Assembly: GCA_024998565.1 (NCBI GenBank)
Contig: JACOEM010000010.1
Span: 1 to 64,000 of the forward strand
Direction: 5' to 3'
Length of the DNA stretch: 64,000 nt
From: Nitrospira sp.
GTDB taxonomy: Bacteria; Nitrospirota; Nitrospiria; Nitrospirales; Nitrospiraceae
The notes below the pieces were generated by a model. That model did not search any database. It saw only the letters and a list, made by a program, of their open reading frames with translations, and was not told where the DNA came from. Numbering within the stretch: position 1 is the stretch's first letter; each line of letters begins with the position of its first letter. This document shows, piece by piece, positions 1-15,800 of the stretch. The position numbers and the translations under genes were made by a program.

Positions 1-31
1 CTCGTGGGGGATTGGACTCTAAATCGCGGCG

Positions 32-499
32 CTACTCAAGACGGGGGTGACGTCGCCGCCACGCCAACACCCGGCGACTGGCCCAGTCGAGCACGGCGAA
101 CAGATACACGAAGCCCCGCGCCATCGGAATGTAGGTGATATCCGCCGCCCAGACGTGATTGGAACGACGGATCGTCAGATCGCGGAGGAGATACGGATAG
201 ATCGTGTGGGCCGGATGTCGGCGGCTGAAATGCGGCTTGCGATACAGGGCCTCCAGACCCATGTGTCGCATCAAGGTCGCCACATGTCGCCTTCCAATGG
301 CCTGGCCCGCTTGCCGCAAGAGATCGCGCAGCATGCGGGCGCCGGCAAACGGATACTGCAGATGCAGCTCGTCAATGCGGCGCATCAAGGCCAATTCCGC
401 TGCCAACACCGGTGTTGGTTGGTAGTACGCGGTGGACCGGGCCAGCTTCAGCAGCTGACATTGTCGAACGACTGACAGGGCGTGAGTTCGGTCGATCAT
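32..499 (-). pseudogene. IS3-family transposase OrfB, truncated
   Basis: The first about 145 residues match the N-terminal half of an IS3 integrase subunit: the HTH_21 region with YPFAGARMLRDLL and ATLMRHMGLEALY, then the start of the DDE catalytic domain with VWAADITYIP, which supplies the first catalytic aspartate, and FVYLFAVLDWASRRVLAW. After this the frame runs into unrelated residues and stops at 32. Normal OrfB is about 270-290 residues, so the second aspartate and the glutamate of the DDE triad are gone. It should be inactive. A short frameshift followed by more coding sequence beyond position 1 cannot be excluded. Confidence 0.8.
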
Positions 500-795
500 C
501 GCTTTGCGCTCAGCAAGCCCGCCTTGGTGAGAGCGCCTTCTAAAAAATCATTCTCCAGCGCCAGTTGGCCGATCTTCGCGTGAAGCGTTTTGAGATCCGG
601 CGTGTCCGCCGTCGGTGTAGTCCCGCCAAACGCTTCCGCCGCGCGCGCCAGCAATTGTTGCTTCCAGTCGGTGATCTGGGTGGGATGGACGCGAAATTGC
701 TCGGCTAGTTCAGTGAGCGTCTTGTCGCCTTTGAGCGCAGCCAAGGCCACTTGCGCCTTAAACGTCGCCCCGTGATTTCGTCTCGTTCGTTTCAT
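496..795 (-). CDS. IS3-family transposase OrfA (helix-turn-helix subunit)
   Basis: This is a small DNA-binding transposase subunit of 99 residues with the HTH_Tnp_1 pattern: a basic start (MKRTRRNHGATFKAQVALA) followed by LTELAEQFRVHPTQITDWKQQLL. A C-terminal leucine-rich stretch (KTLHAKIGQLALENDFLEGAL) is the coiled coil used for OrfA and OrfAB pairing. I chose the internal ATG because GAGGAGCGAGGCA precedes it and the family normally starts at this basic motif; the open frame extends further upstream to 852. The gene overlaps orfB by ATGA. It looks intact, but it would need a full OrfB to act. Confidence 0.85.
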   Translation of the reverse strand: MKRTRRNHGATFKAQVALAALKGDKTLTELAEQFRVHPTQITDWKQQLLARAAEAFGGTTPTADTPDLKTLHAKIGQLALENDFLEGALTKAGLLSAKR

Positions 796-852
796 TGCCT
801 CGCTCCTCTCGTCTACCACCGCTCGGTGGTGTGGGTGAAGCCAGGCTACCAC

Positions 853-1091: not shown

Positions 1092-1157
1092 AACCCCAAC
1101 TAAGTATGGCCCCGGTCCTTGAATACTAACCTTAGCGCGGCTTTGGGAGGTCAGAAA

Positions 1158-2552
1158 TTGAAACATAGGGGCACTGCCGCGAGCGACCCTCATGCCGTCC
1201 TAGATCGATACGACCTCACAGTTCTAGCCTTGGGTTCAATAATCGGAGCCGGAATCTTTATTGTCATTGGAGACACCGCGGCAACTGCAGAGGGCCATCC
1301 TGGGGTTGGTCCAGGCGTTAGCATAGCTATATTACTTGCTGCAATGATTGCATTTCCCATTGCTCTTTGTTACGCGGAGCTATCGACTATATATCCACAC
1401 GCAGGAACTGCCTACACGTACACTAAGCATGCCATGGGAGATTTCCCTGCCTTCATGACAGGGTGGAGTCTCTACGCGCCATTCGGCATGATAGCTTTAG
1501 CTGTTGGCTGGGCCGACTATGTGAACAACCTGTTCTCCAGCTACGATATTCAGTTAAAAGAGCTCTTTCATGCCTCACTATCAGGCTCAAATTGGTTAGC
1601 TATCGCGATTGCTGTGCTGATGATAGCCCTGGCAAGCCGTGAACTGCGCTGGAGTCGACGTCTTGCAACTGTTTTATTGAGTGTCAATGTCGCCATTGCC
1701 TTCGGTTTCATTTCATTGGCGTTTCAACACGTGAACCCATCCAATTGGTGGCCTGTATTGCCATCAGAATATTCACCATTCCAACACGTCAACCTTGTAC
1801 TTGCGGCCACCGCAACTCTATTTTATGCCTTTACCGGCTTTGAAACAGCAGCGGCAATGGCTCAAGATTCGATTGCGCCACAAAAAGATATTCCATACGC
1901 AATCAAAAATGCTCTTATCATCGCGACACTGATGTATTTGCTAGTGGGCTTGGGCTTGACAGGCATGTTGCGTTCCGACGAGATCGAATTGGGTGCGTCC
2001 CTTTCGAAAGCAGTTACTCTAATCGGGCAGCCATGGGCCGCGCAGTGTATTGGAATTGGCATAGTGTCAGCTTTCTCATGCGTATTGCTGACTACGCTAT
2101 TGAGGCAAAGTCGTTTGGGATATGCCATGGCTAACGAATGCTCTGATAATTCGCCCAATGAGAAACCTGCCGTGTCTTTGGCTGTCACAACCTACGTGAC
2201 AGGGATTGTTTTATTAGCATTTCTTATACTCGGGTTTTCCACCCGTGAGGCCGTAGAAATATATTGTCTCTCAGTGTTGTTTGGGTACTGCATCGTATGC
2301 CTTGATCTCATCGCTCTGAGAATCCAGAAGCCTACATTGCATCGCCCTTTCCTTGTGCCATTTGGAAAGCTTGTTGGAACAACAGGGATTTCAGCCTGCC
2401 TTATCTTAATGATCCAGCTGCCCTTAAAGGCATGGGTTTGGTTTTTGGCGTGGATGGCTGCCGGATTCTTGACATTCTGCATAAGAGTTCGAGTGCAGGC
2501 GATGCAAACATTGGAAAGTGGTTCCCCAATGGAACACTCACAAAGGAGTTAA
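1158..2552 (+). CDS. APC-family amino-acid permease
   Basis: This is an inner-membrane amino-acid transporter of 464 residues, the usual length for the APC superfamily. The first membrane segment carries the diagnostic GSIIGAGIF, followed by CYAELSTIYPHAGTAYTY and a central FYAFTGFETAAAMAQD motif. I see about 12 hydrophobic segments. The substrate is not readable; the layout resembles cationic and neutral amino-acid permeases. I prefer the TTG at 1158 because GGGAGG sits seven bases before it; a TTG at 1119 lacks such a site. It is the first gene of a tight operon whose next start is one base after its stop. Base composition is clearly AT-richer than the region beyond 5,900, in keeping with acquisition by transfer. 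Confidence 0.88.
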   Translation: MKHRGTAASDPHAVLDRYDLTVLALGSIIGAGIFIVIGDTAATAEGHPGVGPGVSIAILLAAMIAFPIALCYAELSTIYPHAGTAYTYTKHAMGDFPAFMTGWSLYAPFGMIALAVGWADYVNNLFSSYDIQLKELFHASLSGSNWLAIAIAVLMIALASRELRWSRRLATVLLSVNVAIAFGFISLAFQHVNPSNWWPVLPSEYSPFQHVNLVLAATATLFYAFTGFETAAAMAQDSIAPQKDIPYAIKNALIIATLMYLLVGLGLTGMLRSDEIELGASLSKAVTLIGQPWAAQCIGIGIVSAFSCVLLTTLLRQSRLGYAMANECSDNSPNEKPAVSLAVTTYVTGIVLLAFLILGFSTREAVEIYCLSVLFGYCIVCLDLIALRIQKPTLHRPFLVPFGKLVGTTGISACLILMIQLPLKAWVWFLAWMAAGFLTFCIRVRVQAMQTLESGSPMEHSQRS

Positions 2553-2553
2553 A

Positions 2554-4188
2554 ATGGTAAGGGTGTTCGTTAGTGGAACATATCGTGACCTGGTTGAATA
2601 CAGAGAGGCCATACTTAAGCATCTAGATAGAATGAGTGACTATCACAAGATCTCTATGGAAATTATGGGCACTAGTGATAGAAACGCGGTCGATAAATCA
2701 ATCTCTGACTTAAAGAACTGCCAAGTCTATCTCGGAATCATTGGACACCGGTATGGGACAATACTTCCGGACTATGATGGGAAATCAATTACGGAGCTCG
2801 AGTATGAAACAGCCTATAACCTTCACAGGATGGACCCTCAAAAAATACGTATTTTGATTTATCTGGCCGACGAGAAAATTCTCCTGCCGGTCAAGTTGCG
2901 GGAGGATGATAGCAAATTCCAAAAAGTATCAGACTTTAGGTTGTTGCTTCAGACTCGGCATACTCCCCAGCTGTTTGACTCAGTATTGGACCTAGTCTCA
3001 AAAGTTTCAACGGACCTTCCCAAAGTATTCACGGACGCAAGTTTACGCCCGTCAATGGAATATACCGTATTCGGGGTATCAGAATTGGGCAGAGTATATG
3101 AGGAGATTGATTCAACCACACAAGAACGTATCAATAAGGTTGAGAACTTTTTGCTTTTTACTGCTGAAACATTTGGCTCGCTTTTTAATCTCGTCCAAAA
3201 TTATGCCTCTCACCCTTTCTTTAAGGCCGTCAGAGAAAAACTGTCGTCTGTCATCCCAGGTTTGTCGTTGAATCCAGAGCATGGAGTTTTAAAACGAGCA
3301 AATGTCAGACACGTGATACTTCGGACTGAGACTCTACTTCCCATCCTCTTGGAACTCACCCCACAACTTCTTCAGAAGGTAGGCGTCAATGCGGGCTCCA
3401 CTGCAGCAGGGGACCTCATCAATCAGACGTTGAGACCCAAGAAGTATGTTCCAGCATCTCCACAGGTATTTATTGCGCTGTGGGACTTTTGGGATAGGAC
3501 GGGTGGCTGGGGAGAAATGTGTCTTGTCGAAGACGTGCCATCATCATGGAAGATCAAAATTACAAATAGCTTTTTGACCCTTGAGAATGATTTAGAAAAG
3601 ACTCACAAACTATGTCATTTCTGGTGCGGGTATATTGAAGGATTCCTTTCCCAGTCATTGCCACTTTTGGCCGACTTGATCGCTGAGTTAGAACCATCGC
3701 AGGCAAATAAAGTTGCCCTGCCAGCATATTGGGAAGTAAGTGAGGTTAAACATCTTAATGAGAGTACATCCACCGAAGATTTTTTCACTGTCTCCTTTAA
3801 GAAAAGAAGATTCTCAGTTTCTCTTGAGGAGGTTATAGCGGCCAAAAGTATGATGGACCACAGCTTCTTTGACTTGGCAGTAGGGCATTGTGTGGGGGCC
3901 CTGCTTCACTCCAAACAAGATTTTGGTGATGATGGTAGATGGATACAGAAGATTTCAGCTATGGACGTGGACATTAGAATACGCAACATCTTGCTAAGAG
4001 AGCAAACTGCTGATTCTGTTGCTGCCAGCCAAGCCATTAGAGGAATTCTTCGCCCACTTACGTTGGATAAAGTAAGTATTTTATTCCATCAAACCAATTA
4101 CATTATCCAGCAACTTGTTCAGGGAGATGAAAGGTGTGAAGATAAAAAGCCTGGAGGAGTTGCAGCGAACGCTCTTGCCGCATTCTAA
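2554..4188 (+). CDS. DUF4062 protein with V4R-like C-terminal domain
   Basis: The N-terminal about 115 residues are a DUF4062 domain: VRVFVSGTYRDLVEYREAI, then NCQVYLGIIGHRYG and KSITELEYETAY, which form the conserved core. DUF4062 often heads large signalling or conflict proteins with NTPase or repeat domains, but no such NTPase follows here. Residues about 260-405 instead resemble a V4R (4-vinyl-reductase-like) small-molecule-binding domain: a helical lead-in, GGWGEMCLVE, KITNSF, then CHFWCGYIEGFL, and a closing FFTVSF strand. The last 130 residues are helical and unassigned. No signal peptide or membrane segment is seen, so it should be cytoplasmic. The ATG is preceded by AAGGAGTTAAA and lies one base after the permease stop. 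The DUF4062 call is firm; the V4R call is by pattern only. Confidence 0.75.
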   Translation: MVRVFVSGTYRDLVEYREAILKHLDRMSDYHKISMEIMGTSDRNAVDKSISDLKNCQVYLGIIGHRYGTILPDYDGKSITELEYETAYNLHRMDPQKIRILIYLADEKILLPVKLREDDSKFQKVSDFRLLLQTRHTPQLFDSVLDLVSKVSTDLPKVFTDASLRPSMEYTVFGVSELGRVYEEIDSTTQERINKVENFLLFTAETFGSLFNLVQNYASHPFFKAVREKLSSVIPGLSLNPEHGVLKRANVRHVILRTETLLPILLELTPQLLQKVGVNAGSTAAGDLINQTLRPKKYVPASPQVFIALWDFWDRTGGWGEMCLVEDVPSSWKIKITNSFLTLENDLEKTHKLCHFWCGYIEGFLSQSLPLLADLIAELEPSQANKVALPAYWEVSEVKHLNESTSTEDFFTVSFKKRRFSVSLEEVIAAKSMMDHSFFDLAVGHCVGALLHSKQDFGDDGRWIQKISAMDVDIRIRNILLREQTADSVAASQAIRGILRPLTLDKVSILFHQTNYIIQQLVQGDERCEDKKPGGVAANALAAF

Positions 4189-5266
4189 AGTGCTACTACT
4201 TTACAGTGGTGGCCTGGATGGCAGTTTCCTTTTGTGGTGGCTTTCTAAGCAATCTATAGGGAAGCTATTCGCTCTAACAATTGACCTTGGCGGTGATCTA
4301 GACCTTTCCGTTGTTAGAGAGATTTGCTCAAATTTCGGTGCAGAATCGCTCGTGATCGACAAACGTGAGGAGTTTGTCGCTGAATATGTGGCGCCATCTA
4401 TACCAGCTCAGGGTTACTATCTGGGGGGTCATCCGATCTGTGCATCCTTAAGCAGGCCATTAATGGCAAAAGTTGCAGTGGAAGTTGCGTGCCGCGAAAA
4501 AATTGATGTGCTGTTGCATTCGTCAAATGTAACGCAAAATAGCCTTCGCCGATTCAATGGTGCATTAGAAAGTTTGCAGTTTGCAGGTGTTTTTGGCTCT
4601 CCTTTCGAGGAGAGTACTATAACGAGGGAAGAAAAGAGGAAATGCTTATTATGCAGCGGAGGATGGAAAGGGACAGATGCTCGCTTCAGTTCCGATACAA
4701 ATCTATGGGGAAGGGAATTTGAGAATGGAAGTCTAGATGATCCGGAGAACATAGATATTCCTGAAGAAATATTCTCCTGGACGCGGCAACCTAGGGCTAA
4801 GAGCAGTCGAAAGATAAGTCTTAAGTTTGAGCGAGGCCTCCCCTCCAGCTTAGATTCTGTGCCTATGGGTCTCTCTAAGATAATATCTCGATTGCAATTT
4901 GAGGTCGGAGCTTTTGGGATCGGACGTTATGTTGGATTGGAAGAGATCCAAAATGGTAGCAAGGTACAAGAGGTTCGTGAAATGCCCGCTGCTACGTTGC
5001 TTTATGACGCCTATCGCAGGTTAGAATCGGCTTCGGTACGATCAGAATGTGTTCGAGAGAAATTATGCTTGGAGCAGCTTTGGGTCAGAGAAGCTATTGA
5101 AGGAAGATGGTTTGGGTTGCTCCGAGAGTCGGCTCAAGAATTCATCAACCATGTTGCGGCCCGGGTGAATGGGACAATAGAATATGAGCTAGATTCGCAA
5201 GGGTTTAAGGTGCAATCACTTCGTAGTGAGATTCCGAGATACTTGCGTTCCAGGGGCGAGAGCTGA
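4136..5266 (+). CDS. Argininosuccinate-synthase-like PP-loop ligase
   Basis: This 376-residue protein follows argininosuccinate synthase along most of its length: the ATP-pyrophosphatase loop YSGGLDGS at about residues 23-30, SRPLMAKVAVEVA, SSDTNLWGREFE, and the C-terminal FGIGRYVGLEEIQNGSKVQE and TLLYDAYRRLE. The segment that in true ArgG reads roughly GKGNDQVRFE and binds aspartate and citrulline is changed to NVTQNSLRRFN, and a CLLCSGGW stretch is added. I infer an AMP-forming ligase acting on different substrates, not the arginine-pathway enzyme. Start GTG 4136 has GGGAG nine bases upstream; ATG 4127 is an alternative. It overlaps the DUF4062 gene by about 50 bases, so the two are probably co-translated. 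Confidence 0.72.
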   Translation: MKIKSLEELQRTLLPHSKVLLLYSGGLDGSFLLWWLSKQSIGKLFALTIDLGGDLDLSVVREICSNFGAESLVIDKREEFVAEYVAPSIPAQGYYLGGHPICASLSRPLMAKVAVEVACREKIDVLLHSSNVTQNSLRRFNGALESLQFAGVFGSPFEESTITREEKRKCLLCSGGWKGTDARFSSDTNLWGREFENGSLDDPENIDIPEEIFSWTRQPRAKSSRKISLKFERGLPSSLDSVPMGLSKIISRLQFEVGAFGIGRYVGLEEIQNGSKVQEVREMPAATLLYDAYRRLESASVRSECVREKLCLEQLWVREAIEGRWFGLLRESAQEFINHVAARVNGTIEYELDSQGFKVQSLRSEIPRYLRSRGES

Positions 5267-5534
5267 GACAGAAGGATGTAAGGATTTGATTGATTCCGCG
5301 AGCCAAGCTCAGCGTTCTCAACAGCATAAGCATGGGAAGCATAATGATGGAAACTGTCTCAGCGAAGGGGTTCACCCCATATGCGTGTGCTAAATTTGTG
5401 CTAAAAAGTTTTGAAAAGGACTCCATTCAGTAGAAATCGTGGAATCGATGGAAGCGACCTAACATCTTGATTCGTCGATAAAACCGGGGAAACCTTCGCG
5501 AGATCAAGCCGCTATAGAAATACTACTTAACGAA
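5267..5534. other. Island end, non-coding, with short direct repeats
   Basis: This 268-bp stretch runs between the last island gene and the tRNA fragment. I see no convincing gene. It contains GTGCTAAA twice, at 5387-5394 and 5398-5405, 11 bases apart and so on one face of the helix. Such repeats beside a tRNA junction can be integrase arm-binding sites, but no integrase gene is in view. Confidence 0.4.
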
Positions 5535-5579
5535 CTTTTAAGGCGAGGGTCCTGGGTTCGAATCCCAGCCGACTCACCA
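5535..5579 (+). repeat. 3' half of tRNA-Lys(UUU), putative attachment site
   Basis: The sequence begins exactly with a seven-base anticodon loop CTTTTAA (anticodon TTT). It continues with the 3' anticodon-stem strand GGCGA, a five-base variable loop GGGTC, a perfect T arm (CTGGG, TTCGAAT, CCCAG at 5552-5568), the acceptor strand CCGACTC, discriminator A and CCA. Bases upstream (ACGAA) do not pair with GGCGA, and no D arm or 5' acceptor strand is present, so it is not a working tRNA. A fragment running from anticodon loop to 3' end is the common core left when an element integrates into a tRNA gene. The intact tRNA-Lys should lie left of this window. Confidence 0.85.
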
Positions 5580-5923
5580 TACAAATTCGGCATTCCTGTA
5601 ATCCCCGCTAGTGCTCCTGAATTCATTAGCCCGCTGCTTTTTCTCCGGCGTGAGTTCCGCTGATTCGGCAGTCCATCTTTGCGTTCGCCGTTTCACCTGG
5701 GGTGCTCGCTGTCTGTCGCACATTCAGTCATCCACTTGGCCGCGTGCGTTTTAGGGTTGAGGATGCTCCGGCAGACGTGCAAGATGTCGATTCACGTTCT
5801 TATAGTTTGCTCTGCCCGGTCACTCTCAGTACCGATCCTCAGAGACATCACAACCATGGTGCTCCCAACGTGGGTATCACATTGCGTGGCCAGTGGCGGC
5901 CGCGCACACGAAAGGAATGACAC
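5580..5923. other. Intergenic stretch, no supported gene
   Basis: This 344-bp stretch lies between the tRNA fragment and the lipoprotein gene. Short overlapping frames exist on both strands, but none has a ribosome-binding site plus recognisable sequence. A promoter for the following gene presumably lies here; I could not pick one out. Confidence 0.5.
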
Positions 5924-6292
5924 GTGATGACGAGACGACTTTCGAAGCAATGGCAGGTCCGGGGCTGGACTTGTGCAGTGCTGTTGGCGGCGACGTTCAC
6001 CACCGGCTGCATGCATCATCCAGGCGGCATCGCGCCTTCGACCAAGCCGCTGGCTCCTGGCGGATATGCCGAACTGGGCAAGGTGCGCGGGCAGGATTGT
6101 GTCTATCACCTGCTGGGCCTCATTCCGGTGACGGGTGGCAATGAGATGAGAAATGCGGTCGAGGATGCGCTTCGCACGAAACCCTTGGCGGATGCGCTGG
6201 TCGAAGTCACGGTCGACGGCTATTTCCAGTATTTCATTTTGTTCTCGCGAGCCTGCACGCAGGTGTACGGCACGGCCGTCGAAACAAAATAG
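5924..6292 (+). CDS. Small lipoprotein, TRL-like
   Basis: This 122-residue protein has a basic start, a hydrophobic core and a lipobox ending TTGC, with the lipidated cysteine at residue 29. The mature part reads LGLIPVTGGNEMRNAVEDAL and ends with a short beta-rich segment. This resembles small TRL-like lipoproteins, but the match is weak and I do not assign a function. GTG 5924 has AAAGGA seven bases upstream; the ATG three bases later is equally possible. The next gene, ada, starts about 100 bases downstream, so the two may share a transcript. Confidence 0.6.
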   Translation: MMTRRLSKQWQVRGWTCAVLLAATFTTGCMHHPGGIAPSTKPLAPGGYAELGKVRGQDCVYHLLGLIPVTGGNEMRNAVEDALRTKPLADALVEVTVDGYFQYFILFSRACTQVYGTAVETK

Positions 6293-6395
6293 GCGGAGCC
6301 GGGCTCTTCTCGAATTCGACAGCAGGATTCGGAGTGTTGCGCGGGTTCTTGCCTGTTACCCTGTAGGGACTCATGCCAAGGTGAACGGAGTGCCT

Positions 6396-7490
6396 ATGAC
6401 CTCCTCGGCCTCGACTTCGCGACGGATCAACCGGACCATCAGGCAGGACTCGCGTTGGGCGGCCATCCTGACCCGCGATCCTGCCGCGGACGGCACCTTC
6501 TACTATTCCGTCAAGACGACCGGGGTGTATTGCCGTCCTTCCTGTGCGGCGCGTCAGCCTCTGCGGGAGAATGTCCGGTTTCACGCGACCCGCGCGGATG
6601 CCGAACAGGCCGGGTTCCGTCCGTGCAAGCGTTGCCGGCCTGATCAGCCCTCGTCGCTTGATCGGCAAGCGGGATTGGTGGTCGCCATCTGCCGGTATAT
6701 TGAGCAGGCCGGGCACCTGCCGTCTCTCGACGAGTTGGCGCAACGCGCGAGGATGAGTCCGTCCCATTTTCGTCGGGTCTTTACCTCCGTCACGGGCCTG
6801 ACACCGCGGGGATATGCCGCTGCACACCGCGCAACACGGGTACGGTTTGAATTAGCGCATGATCGTCCGGTGACGGAGGCGCTCTATGAGGCCGGGTTCA
6901 ATTCTTCCGGGCGCTTCTACGAAACGTCGAATGCCCTTCTGGGTATGACCCCGTCACGCTACCGGGCCGGGGGTGCACAGACCGAGATCCGGTTTGCGGT
7001 GGGACAGTGTTCATTGGGGGCGATTCTGGTGGCTCAAAGTGAGCGCGGGGTCTGCGCCATTCTCCTGGGCGAGGATCCGGATGCGTTGACGCGGGATCTT
7101 CAGGACCGGTTCCCCCGGGCGAACCTCATCGGTGGGGATGCCGCATTTGAGGGCCTGGTCTCAACCGTGGTCGGCTTCGTGGAAGCTCCGGGGCGAGGGT
7201 TGAACCTTCCGCTCGATATCCGGGGCACGGCGTTCCAGCAGCTAGTGTGGCAGGCCTTGCAGCGGATTCCCGCGGGCTCGACGGCGACGTATGCCGAGAT
7301 CGCGACTCGCATCGGTTCGCCCAAGTCCATGCGAGCGGTCGGGCGGGCTTGCGGGGCGAATCCATTGGCGGTCGCCATTCCCTGTCATCGAGTCGTGCGC
7401 AACGATGGTGGCCTCTCGGGCTATCGCTGGGGTGTGGAGCGCAAACGGATGTTGCTTGAACGTGAGTCGAGTGTGGCCCGTGAAGCGTAA
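6396..7490 (+). CDS. ada: Ada: bifunctional DNA alkyl-repair protein and regulator
   Basis: This 364-residue protein has the full Ada layout. The N-terminal domain has the zinc and methyl-phosphotriester cysteines C46, C50, C77 and C80 (YCRPSC and CKRC). An AraC-type helix-turn-helix follows (LDELAQRARMSPSHFRRVF and EAGFNSSGRFYE). The C-terminal O6-methylguanine-DNA methyltransferase has the PCHRVV active site with C330. The protein removes methyl groups from DNA and, when methylated on its N-terminal cysteine, should activate alkylation-response genes, probably including its own. The start at 6396 is chosen for the ACGGAG five bases upstream; the open frame extends to 6153 but overlaps the lipoprotein gene. 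The stop codon lies within the start of a GTGAAACGT-type repeat. Confidence 0.95.
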   Translation: MTSSASTSRRINRTIRQDSRWAAILTRDPAADGTFYYSVKTTGVYCRPSCAARQPLRENVRFHATRADAEQAGFRPCKRCRPDQPSSLDRQAGLVVAICRYIEQAGHLPSLDELAQRARMSPSHFRRVFTSVTGLTPRGYAAAHRATRVRFELAHDRPVTEALYEAGFNSSGRFYETSNALLGMTPSRYRAGGAQTEIRFAVGQCSLGAILVAQSERGVCAILLGEDPDALTRDLQDRFPRANLIGGDAAFEGLVSTVVGFVEAPGRGLNLPLDIRGTAFQQLVWQALQRIPAGSTATYAEIATRIGSPKSMRAVGRACGANPLAVAIPCHRVVRNDGGLSGYRWGVERKRMLLERESSVAREA

Positions 7491-12833: not shown

Positions 12834-15800
12834 ACCCGTCGCGGCTGTTCATCGTCCGGCCTGTGGCGACGGTCCTGACGATGATCGCCATTCTCCTGGC
12901 CGGGGCGCTGGCCTACCGCCAGCTGCCTGTCTCCGCCCTTCCGCAAGTCGATTACCCGACCATTCAGGTGATGACGTTTTATCCCGGCGCCGGACCGGAT
13001 GTCATGACCTCGTCGATCACCGCGCCGCTGGAACGGCAGTTCGGGCAAATGCCCGGGCTGAACCAGATGACCTCCACGAGCTCAGGCGGCAGTTCGGTCG
13101 TCACCCTGCAATTCAGCCTCGATATCGATCTGGATGTGGCCGAGCAGGAAGTCCAGGCGGCGATGAATGCGGCGGCCACGTTTCTGCCGCGCGATCTGCC
13201 GGCTCCTCCGGTCTATAGCAAGGTCAATCCGGCCGACGCGCCGATTCTCACCCTGGCCTTGACCTCGGCCACGCTGCCCCTGCCCCAAGTGCGTGATTTC
13301 GCGGAAACCCGGTTCGCGCAAAAGATTTCACAGTTGTCCGGCGTCGGTCTGGTCAGCATCAGCGGCGGGCAGCGGCCCGCCGTGCGCATCCAGGCCAATC
13401 CCCGCGCCTTGGCTGCCTATGGATTGACGTTGGAGGATCTGCGAACCGTCGTGGCCGCCGCGAACGTCAATCAGGCCAAAGGCGGATTCGACGGACCCCG
13501 GCGCGCGTCCATCATCAACGCCACCGACCAATTGTTTGCCGGCAAGGATTACAAAGCGTTGATCGTCGCCTATCGCAACGGGGCGCCGGTTCGGCTCTCG
13601 GAGGTCGCCGAGGTGATCGACGATGTCGAGAATACCAAGCAGGCGGCATGGATGAATGAGACGCCGGCCGTGATCGTCAACATCCAGCGCCAGCCGGGGA
13701 CGAATGTCATCGAAGTCGTCGATCGGGTCAAGCGACTGTTGCCGCAATTGCAGGGGACCTTGCCATCTTCGGTGCAGGTCTCGGTGCTGACCGACCGCAC
13801 CACCTCGATCCGCGCGACCGTTCGCGATGTGCAGTTCGAACTAGTGCTCGCGGTGGCGCTCGTCATCCTGGTGATCTTCCTGTTTCTGCGGACGTTACCC
13901 GCCACGGTGATTCCGGCGGTGGCGGTGCCCTTGTCGCTCATCGGCACATTCGGTCTCATGTACCTGATGGGCTTCAGTTTGAATAACCTGACGTTAATGG
14001 CGCTGACGATCTCAACCGGTTTCGTGGTGGACGATGCCATCGTGATGATCGAGAACATCGCACGGTACATCGAACAGGGGGAGTCGCCGTTTCAGGCGGC
14101 GCTCAAAGGATCGAAGCAGATCGCCTTTACCATCCTGTCGCTGACGGTGTCTCTGATCGCCGTGCTCATTCCCTTGCTGTTCATGGGCGATGTGGTCGGG
14201 CGGCTGTTTCGCGAATTTGCCGTCACGCTGAGCATCACCATCCTCATCTCCGCGATCGTGTCGCTGACCCTGACGCCGATGATGTGCGCCCGGCTGTTGC
14301 GCGAGCGGCGGGCCGAACAGCCTGGCCGGTTCTCGCAGGCGTCGCAACGGATGTTGGATCGTATCATTGCGGGGTACGGGCGAAGTTTGCAGTGGGTACT
14401 CCGTCGTCAGCGCGCCACGTTGGTCGTGACGGGAGGCACCCTGGGGCTCACCCTGCTGCTCTTCCTGCTCATTCCCAAGGGCTTCTTTCCACTTCAGGAC
14501 ACCGGTGTCATTCTGGGGATCACGGAAGGCCCGCAAGCGGTTTCTTTCGGCACCATGGGAGAGCGGCAACAGGCGTTGGCGCGTGTGATTCTCGAAGAGC
14601 CGGCCGTCGAAAGCCTGTCCTCCTTCATCGGGGTCGATGGGACGAACACCACCCTCAACAGCGGACGGATGTATATCAATCTGAAGCCTTTGGGGGAACG
14701 GATGGCGGGGGCGGGCGAGATCATCCGGCGGATCGAAGCACGCGTGGCGGAGGTGGATGGGATCACCCTGCACATGCAGCCGGTGCAGGATCTCACCGTG
14801 GAAGATCGCGTCAGCCGCACCCAGTTTCAATATACGTTGGAAGACGCCGATCCTGAGGAGCTGAATCGCTGGGCGCCGAAACTGCTGGAGAGCCTGCAGG
14901 TGCGGCCGGAGCTGCGGGATGTCAGCAGCGATCAACTGAATCAGGGGCTGGCGTCGCTGGTGGAGATCGACCGCAATACCGCCTCGCGCATGGGCATCAC
15001 GCCGCAACTCATCACCGACACGCTCTACGATGCTTTCGGGCAGCGGCAGGTCTCCACCATGTTCACGCAACTGAACCAGTACCGCGTCATTCTGGAAGTG
15101 ATGCCGGAATTTCAGAAAGGGCCGGAGGCGCTGCAACAGTTGGAAGTGCGCGGGAGCGGCGGGTCGGTGCCGTTGAATGTCTTCACGAGAGTGACCGAAA
15201 CGACGGTGCCGCTAGTCATCAGCCGGCAGGGCCAGTTTCCAGCCGTGACGATCTCCTTCAACCTTGCGCCGGGAGGGTCCCTCGGTGAAGCGGTGACAGC
15301 GATCCGGCAGGTGACGCATGAGCTCGGCCTGCCCCCGAGCATCCGCGGGAGTTTCCAGGGCGCCGCGCAAGCCTTTCAAAGCTCCTTGGAACATGAACCC
15401 CTGCTGATCCTGGCCGCCCTGATCACCGTCTATATCGTGCTCGGGATTTTGTATGAGAGTTACATCCATCCCCTCACGATCCTGTCTACGTTGCCCTCTG
15501 CGGGGGTCGGCGCGCTGCTGGCCCTGATGTTGTTCCGCATGGAGTTCAGCATCATCGCGCTGATCGGGATCATTCTCCTGATCGGCATCGTGAAGAAGAA
15601 TGCCATCATGATGATCGATTTCGCCTTGGAGGCGGAACGCAACGAGGGCAAGCCGCCGGAGCAGGCTATCTATGAAGCCGGACTCCTGCGTTTTCGCCCG
15701 ATCATGATGACGACCATGGCGGCGCTCTTCGGGGCCTTGCCCCTGGCGATGGGCTCGGGGGTCGGATCGGAGTTGCGGCAACCACTCGGAATTGCCATCG

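Follow-up and report, generated by a model that had tools for sequence, protein, structure and literature searches.

A displaced tRNA-Lys fragment marks the right end of an integrated island with an inovirus-like module and defence-rich cargo in Nitrospira

The window analysed here is the first 64 kb of contig C10 in a Nitrospira genome of 4.13 Mb and 19 contigs. At 5535..5579 on the plus strand it carries 45 bases that read CTTTTAAGGCGAGGGTCCTGGGTTCGAATCCCAGCCGACTCACCA and correspond to the 3′ part of tRNA-Lys(UUU), tRNA positions 32-76. All 45 bases are identical to those of the intact tRNA-Lys(UUU) gene at C9:168721-168796. The first base of the fragment is tRNA position 32, where the anticodon loop begins, and its last three bases are CCA. 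The 5′ half of the tRNA is absent at the fragment, because 27 of the 31 preceding bases differ from it, and ARAGORN found no complete tRNA in the 64-kb window. The G+C content changes from 0.46 (4501-5500) to 0.58 (5501-6500) and 0.62 (6001-7000) across the fragment. The first-pass annotation had described a tRNA end that begins at the anticodon loop and reaches CCA without a 5′ half, at a shift in base composition, and both parts of that description hold. A genome-wide pattern search allowing up to 3 mismatches returned two copies only, C10:5535-5579 and C9:168752-168796, both perfect and both in the plus orientation, whereas the reversed control pattern had 0 matches in the whole genome. The C9 copy is the 3′ part of the intact tRNA gene, which has the anticodon TTT at tRNA positions 34-36. 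The length and identity of the 45-base match exclude a chance match.

The sequence to the left of the fragment, of lower G+C, lies on the island side. Positions 1..55 (minus strand) are the end of a multi-copy nested insertion sequence (IS) at which the assembly breaks. It is followed by an IS3-family element at 56..852 (minus strand), which consists of orfA (496-852) and the N-terminal half of orfB (about 56-499). Three cargo genes on the plus strand come next: an amino acid permease (1119..2552; PF13520, E=2e-36), a DUF4062 protein (2518..4188; PF13271, E=8e-21) and an argininosuccinate-synthase-like protein (4115..5266; PF00764, E=2e-24; PF20979, E=3e-29). To the right, the chromosomal flank at 5580..6292 (plus strand) contains a small lipoprotein-like gene (5924-6292) and is colinear with the flanks in the related genomes G021 and G023.

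It had been expected that an intact tRNA-Lys(UUU) with an adjoining integrase would lie to the left of the window. Both were found, and the 45 bases match exactly and in the same direction, but they lie on contig C9 rather than further left, since C10 begins with the window. The integrase gene (C9:168812-170020, minus strand) encodes a tyrosine recombinase of 402 aa (PF00589, E=1e-36; PHROG integrase, E=3e-74) with an HDMRHTF active-site motif. It is convergent with tRNA-Lys, and its stop codon lies 15 bp beyond the CCA of the tRNA. Its N-terminal arm-binding domain, PF12167, scored 19.3 bits, just under the Pfam cutoff of 22.

The two contigs appear to be joined through the nested IS. Its inverted terminal repeats lie at the end of C9, where they take up the last 53 bp, and at the start of C10. 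The sequences outside it are ...GACAACCGC on C9 and CCGCCACG... on C10, which represent a 4-bp target duplication, CCGC. The rest of orfB, its C-terminal part, lies at the end of C9, and removal of the nested IS together with one duplicate restores a continuous IS3 orfB frame (...RVLAWRLSNTLTTDFC...) across the junction. Since the target duplication matches and the orfB frame is restored, the order C9-IS-C10, and hence the placement of both ends in one replicon, has good though indirect support from the sequences. With 26.0 kb on C9, an IS taken as about 1.2 kb (an assumed length) and 5.5 kb in the window, the island would be about 33 kb long. A short run of N at about C9:190900 represents a small scaffold gap in the left part of the island.

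As the nested IS also has copies at C13, C3 and C2, more than one join is possible, and the fragment could end a different island, with C10 joined to another contig end (for instance C13) and the attR of the C9 island located elsewhere. We consider this very unlikely. Only the C9 flank (ACCGC) matches the C10 flank (CCGC) as a target duplication, only the C9 join restores the orfB frame, and the genome's single intact tRNA-Lys is matched by a single 3′ fragment. Contig C13, with a copy of this IS at its end, was rejected as the neighbour of C10 by the reading frame and by its flank at the IS, which reads ...GAATCTG and not CCGC. A reading that discards the island altogether, in which the fragment is a product of chance or a decayed pseudo-tRNA unrelated to any island, is given virtually no weight and was rejected: it is contradicted by the perfect match in the same orientation, the integrase, and the arm repeats and empty site described below. 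The fragment is thus very probably an ordinary attR, left by the site-specific integration of an island of about 33 kb. As a boundary mark such a fragment is textbook, and it fixes the right end of the island.

A 19-bp arm-type repeat, GTGCTAAATTTGTGCTAAA, lies at 5387..5405 (plus strand) in the window, 148 bp before the start of the core. Its partner in attL, in direct orientation, occupies C9:168856-168874 and follows the core start by 104 bp. The same motif with the same spacings is found at both ends of class-1 islands in other species. In G000, G004, G006, G011 and G016 both copies are present, at +104 and -148/149 from the core start, and other islands have the repeat at one of these two positions. 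In a search of 30 relatives, the repeat occurred in the same genus only and was largely paired at island ends; the reversed control pattern had 0 matches in the same 30 relatives. Among GTDB genomes, nearly all of its occurrences are in Nitrospira and other Nitrospirota. Read in the integrase frame, the repeat codes for FSTNLA close to the C-terminus. No integrase is encoded at the fragment end, so the conservation of the repeat there is at the DNA level. The paired repeats flanking the core are likely to be arm-binding sites. The island-side part of attR (5480..5534, plus strand) is also kept between islands. Its last 24 bases recur unchanged in front of the fragments in G006, G011 and G023, and a 34-bp piece of it is also present on C13 (91% match at C13:123059-123093). 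This part is a candidate, and probable, binding region for integrase or excisionase.

Contig C13 carries what looks like a second island end. The same arm repeat is located at C13:120166-120184, an apparent tRNA-Thr 3′ part that starts at the anticodon loop follows the arm repeat at about C13:119992-120036 (L009, about 14993-15037, minus strand), and a further partial repeat of the same kind is at C13:123173.

How would the fragment have come to its present position? In the proposed mechanism, the circular form of the element would carry its own copy of the tRNA-Lys 3′ part, and the C9 integrase would recombine this copy with the chromosomal tRNA-Lys gene by an exchange in or near the anticodon loop. 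Integration would then rebuild the tRNA at C9 from the host 5′ half and a 3′ half supplied by the island, and the host's own 3′ part would be displaced to the far end, to become window positions 5535-5579. The predicted attP of the circular form reads ...ACTACTTAACGAA-CTTTTAAGG...CCATATAAAGTC... We infer the exact crossover bases, the repeat bound by the integrase and present-day excision.

Comparison with relatives provided the empty site. In G021, which has no island, the intact tRNA directly abuts the right flank of the window (79.6% identity over 766 bp). The same flank is 90% identical in G023 (Ca. N. defluvii), where it follows a fragment that closes a 4.6-kb island, and 98% identical in G019, where it follows a fragment that closes a different island of 35 kb. 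The lack of an intact upstream tRNA-Lys with the same 3′ part and orientation, together with a fragment in relatives that lack an island, would have spoken against an integrated island; instead, the island-free relative has the whole tRNA before the same flank, and the relatives that bear a fragment have an island before it. Taken with the integrase and the arm repeats, the empty site supports the earlier proposal of a tRNA end displaced by a tyrosine-recombinase island that targets the anticodon loop. G001 had the look of an empty site and was not used as one; the sequence after its tRNA resembles the region beside a class-3 attachment site.

The use of this tRNA is widespread in the genus. 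Fragments of the tRNA-Lys 3′ part, read directly, are present in at least 17 of 28 same-genus genomes; they start nearly always at tRNA position 29-32, and several genomes carry two or more. In G004 and G012 the attachment region of a next element begins to the right of the fragment, and therefore successive elements are stacked there. G025 was left out as a clean case: a class-1-like right end lies inside its class-2 unit (L093/L094), as if elements were nested or had swapped ends. In G009 (Nitrospira sp. UBC2; L063, L044), one chromosome holds the intact tRNA-Lys and, 1.3 Mb away, a tRNA fragment with a class-1 attL arm after it, a separation that suggests rearrangement between attachment sites. 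The integrases of class 1, to which the present island belongs, and of class 2 use the same tRNA-Lys with different repeats and are only about 30% identical, and therefore integrase cassettes have been exchanged on a constant core. In G007, G020 and G025 (L043, L050, L054), the class-2 integrase frame runs antisense through the whole tRNA-Lys gene, so that its C-terminus would be encoded by the complement of the tRNA.

The constant core lies directly behind the integrase. The order in the island is integrase cassette, an inovirus-like module of about 5.9 kb transcribed towards the tRNA, and then the defence-rich cargo. The module encodes a Zot-type pI ATPase with one hydrophobic segment (PF05707, E=2e-28; PHROG 197, E=1.5e-49), a replication initiator (Rep_trans PF02486, E=3e-37; PF05144 below cutoff) and a 422-aa secreted or membrane protein of minor-coat type. 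It also encodes a protein of 70 aa within C9:171190-171438, with a signal peptide and one membrane helix, which was assigned as a pVIII-like coat protein by size and hydropathy, without a profile match. The mature part of this protein is identical in 20 of 22 loci, and the copies of its gene show 219 synonymous versus 23 non-synonymous differences to the G000 copy. These counts indicate strong purifying selection on the pVIII-like protein, as would be expected if a coat function were maintained.

The same module of about 5.9 kb, at 79-91% identity, is found beside tRNA-Ala, -Thr, -Glu, -Phe, -Gly and two -Arg genes in seven genomes (L193-L205). With tRNA-Lys, it adjoins eight kinds of tRNA gene, behind interchangeable integrases, and its start is always just behind the integrase cassette. 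At the tRNA-Gly(CCC) and tRNA-Arg loci (L198, L199, L201, L202, L203) the module is on the 5′ side of the tRNA, and attachment there may involve the 5′ part of the tRNA or another site. The source genome has three Zot copies, on C9, C4 and C14. In IMG/VR, no stand-alone viral contig with a close relative of the Zot protein was confirmed by a scan that reaches close relatives only.

Besides the three genes in the window, the cargo on C9 includes genes for a DrmD-like helicase, an AAA protein, type III restriction-modification, a DUF1016 nuclease-like protein and a caspase-domain protein. Genes for type IIG restriction enzymes, together with AbiU-like, Hma and phospholipase-effector genes, occur in other islands. 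The PADLOC matches represent resemblance, and the rules called no complete defence system. The module is likewise followed by 12-28 kb of lower-G+C cargo in five other complete tRNA-Lys islands, none of which has a tRNA fragment between the two. From tRNA to fragment, the unit of this genome spans about 33 kb and those of five other genomes 21-35 kb, as compared with about 5.9 kb for the module alone.

These dimensions raise the question of whether module and cargo form one unit. The fragment might bound only the outer of two neighbours, a small inovirus prophage next to the tRNA and a separate defence island behind it, if the boundary between them has been lost by decay. The usual size of inoviruses is 5-20 kb (Roux et al. 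2019, PMC6813254), tandem arrays are seen at tRNA-Lys, and the G+C of the module (0.58-0.60) differs from that of the cargo (0.49-0.56), all of which would suit two elements. However, no tRNA-Lys 3′ fragment separates module from cargo in G000, G004, G006, G007, G016, G019 or G020, the arm repeats are at the outer ends only, and G004 and G016, which represent two species, share the whole 29-kb unit, module and cargo together, with one substitution and with differing flanks. We therefore regard two separate elements as unlikely, and favour a single unit bounded by the tRNA and its fragment.

The same pair of genomes brackets the crossover. Identity between G004 and G016 ends inside the fragment, with differences at tRNA positions 59 and 69, and is followed by unrelated flanks; therefore the recipient site, and not the travelling element, contributed the outer part of the fragment. 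The exchange would accordingly lie between tRNA positions 32 and 58, a bracket that fits the anticodon loop and comes from one genome pair, of which G016 is a metagenome assembly that holds the island inside a 377-kb contig with its own flanks. After the shared island, the next elements are different in G016 (L066) and G004 (L061). Joint transfer of module and cargo was seen once, in this pair; that the core is what moves the cargo, we infer. It is possible, as a tentative reading, that the tRNA-Lys islands are oversized filamentous-phage proviruses, in which a functional inovirus core with interchangeable integrases would replicate, and perhaps package or mobilise, 12-28 kb of defence cargo between Nitrospira species.

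The tRNA-fragment signature itself is common, because Islander counts 2083 anticodon-centred islands and 3760 with 3′ fragments (PMC4383910). With the class A islands of that collection the present one shares an intact tRNA, a 3′ fragment downstream that runs in the same orientation to the tRNA end, a tyrosine integrase inside and a length within 2-200 kb; it also has an empty site, and the fragment comes from the same tRNA on the same replicon, as deduced from the IS junction. Nothing essential differs. What is unusual is the genus-wide density with which one tRNA is used, together with the repeated tandem fragments; for tandems, Islander gives 125 of two or more and 4 of three or more (PMC4383910).

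The likeness to inovirus proviruses (Inoviridae sensu lato) includes the Zot-type pI ATPase with a membrane segment, the rolling-circle-type replication initiator, the small pVIII-like protein and tyrosine-recombinase integration at a tRNA. In contrast, the units here have 21-35 kb, above the 5-20 kb range of inovirus genomes, and 12-28 kb of this is cargo that is not viral and consists mostly of defence genes. As in defence islands on integrative elements, genes for restriction-modification, DISARM-like helicase, Hma, AbiU-like proteins, phospholipase effectors and caspases are found between integrase and attR, whereas the constant backbone here is the inovirus-like module; no conjugation genes were noticed among the annotated proteins. 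The less usual feature is that an inovirus-like core and defence cargo are combined in units that exceed the size reported for inoviruses (PMC6813254). Literature searches of openly accessible journal papers, on Nitrospira with islands at tRNA-Lys, with inoviruses, with filamentous phages, or with integrases and prophages, found no description of these elements. The island family may be of more consequence than the boundary mark: Nitrospira are key nitrifiers, and one tRNA-Lys gene serves them as a genus-wide entry point for exchangeable phage-defence packages. If the inovirus-like core really moves the cargo, this would be a route for defence genes that is not usually assigned to filamentous phages.
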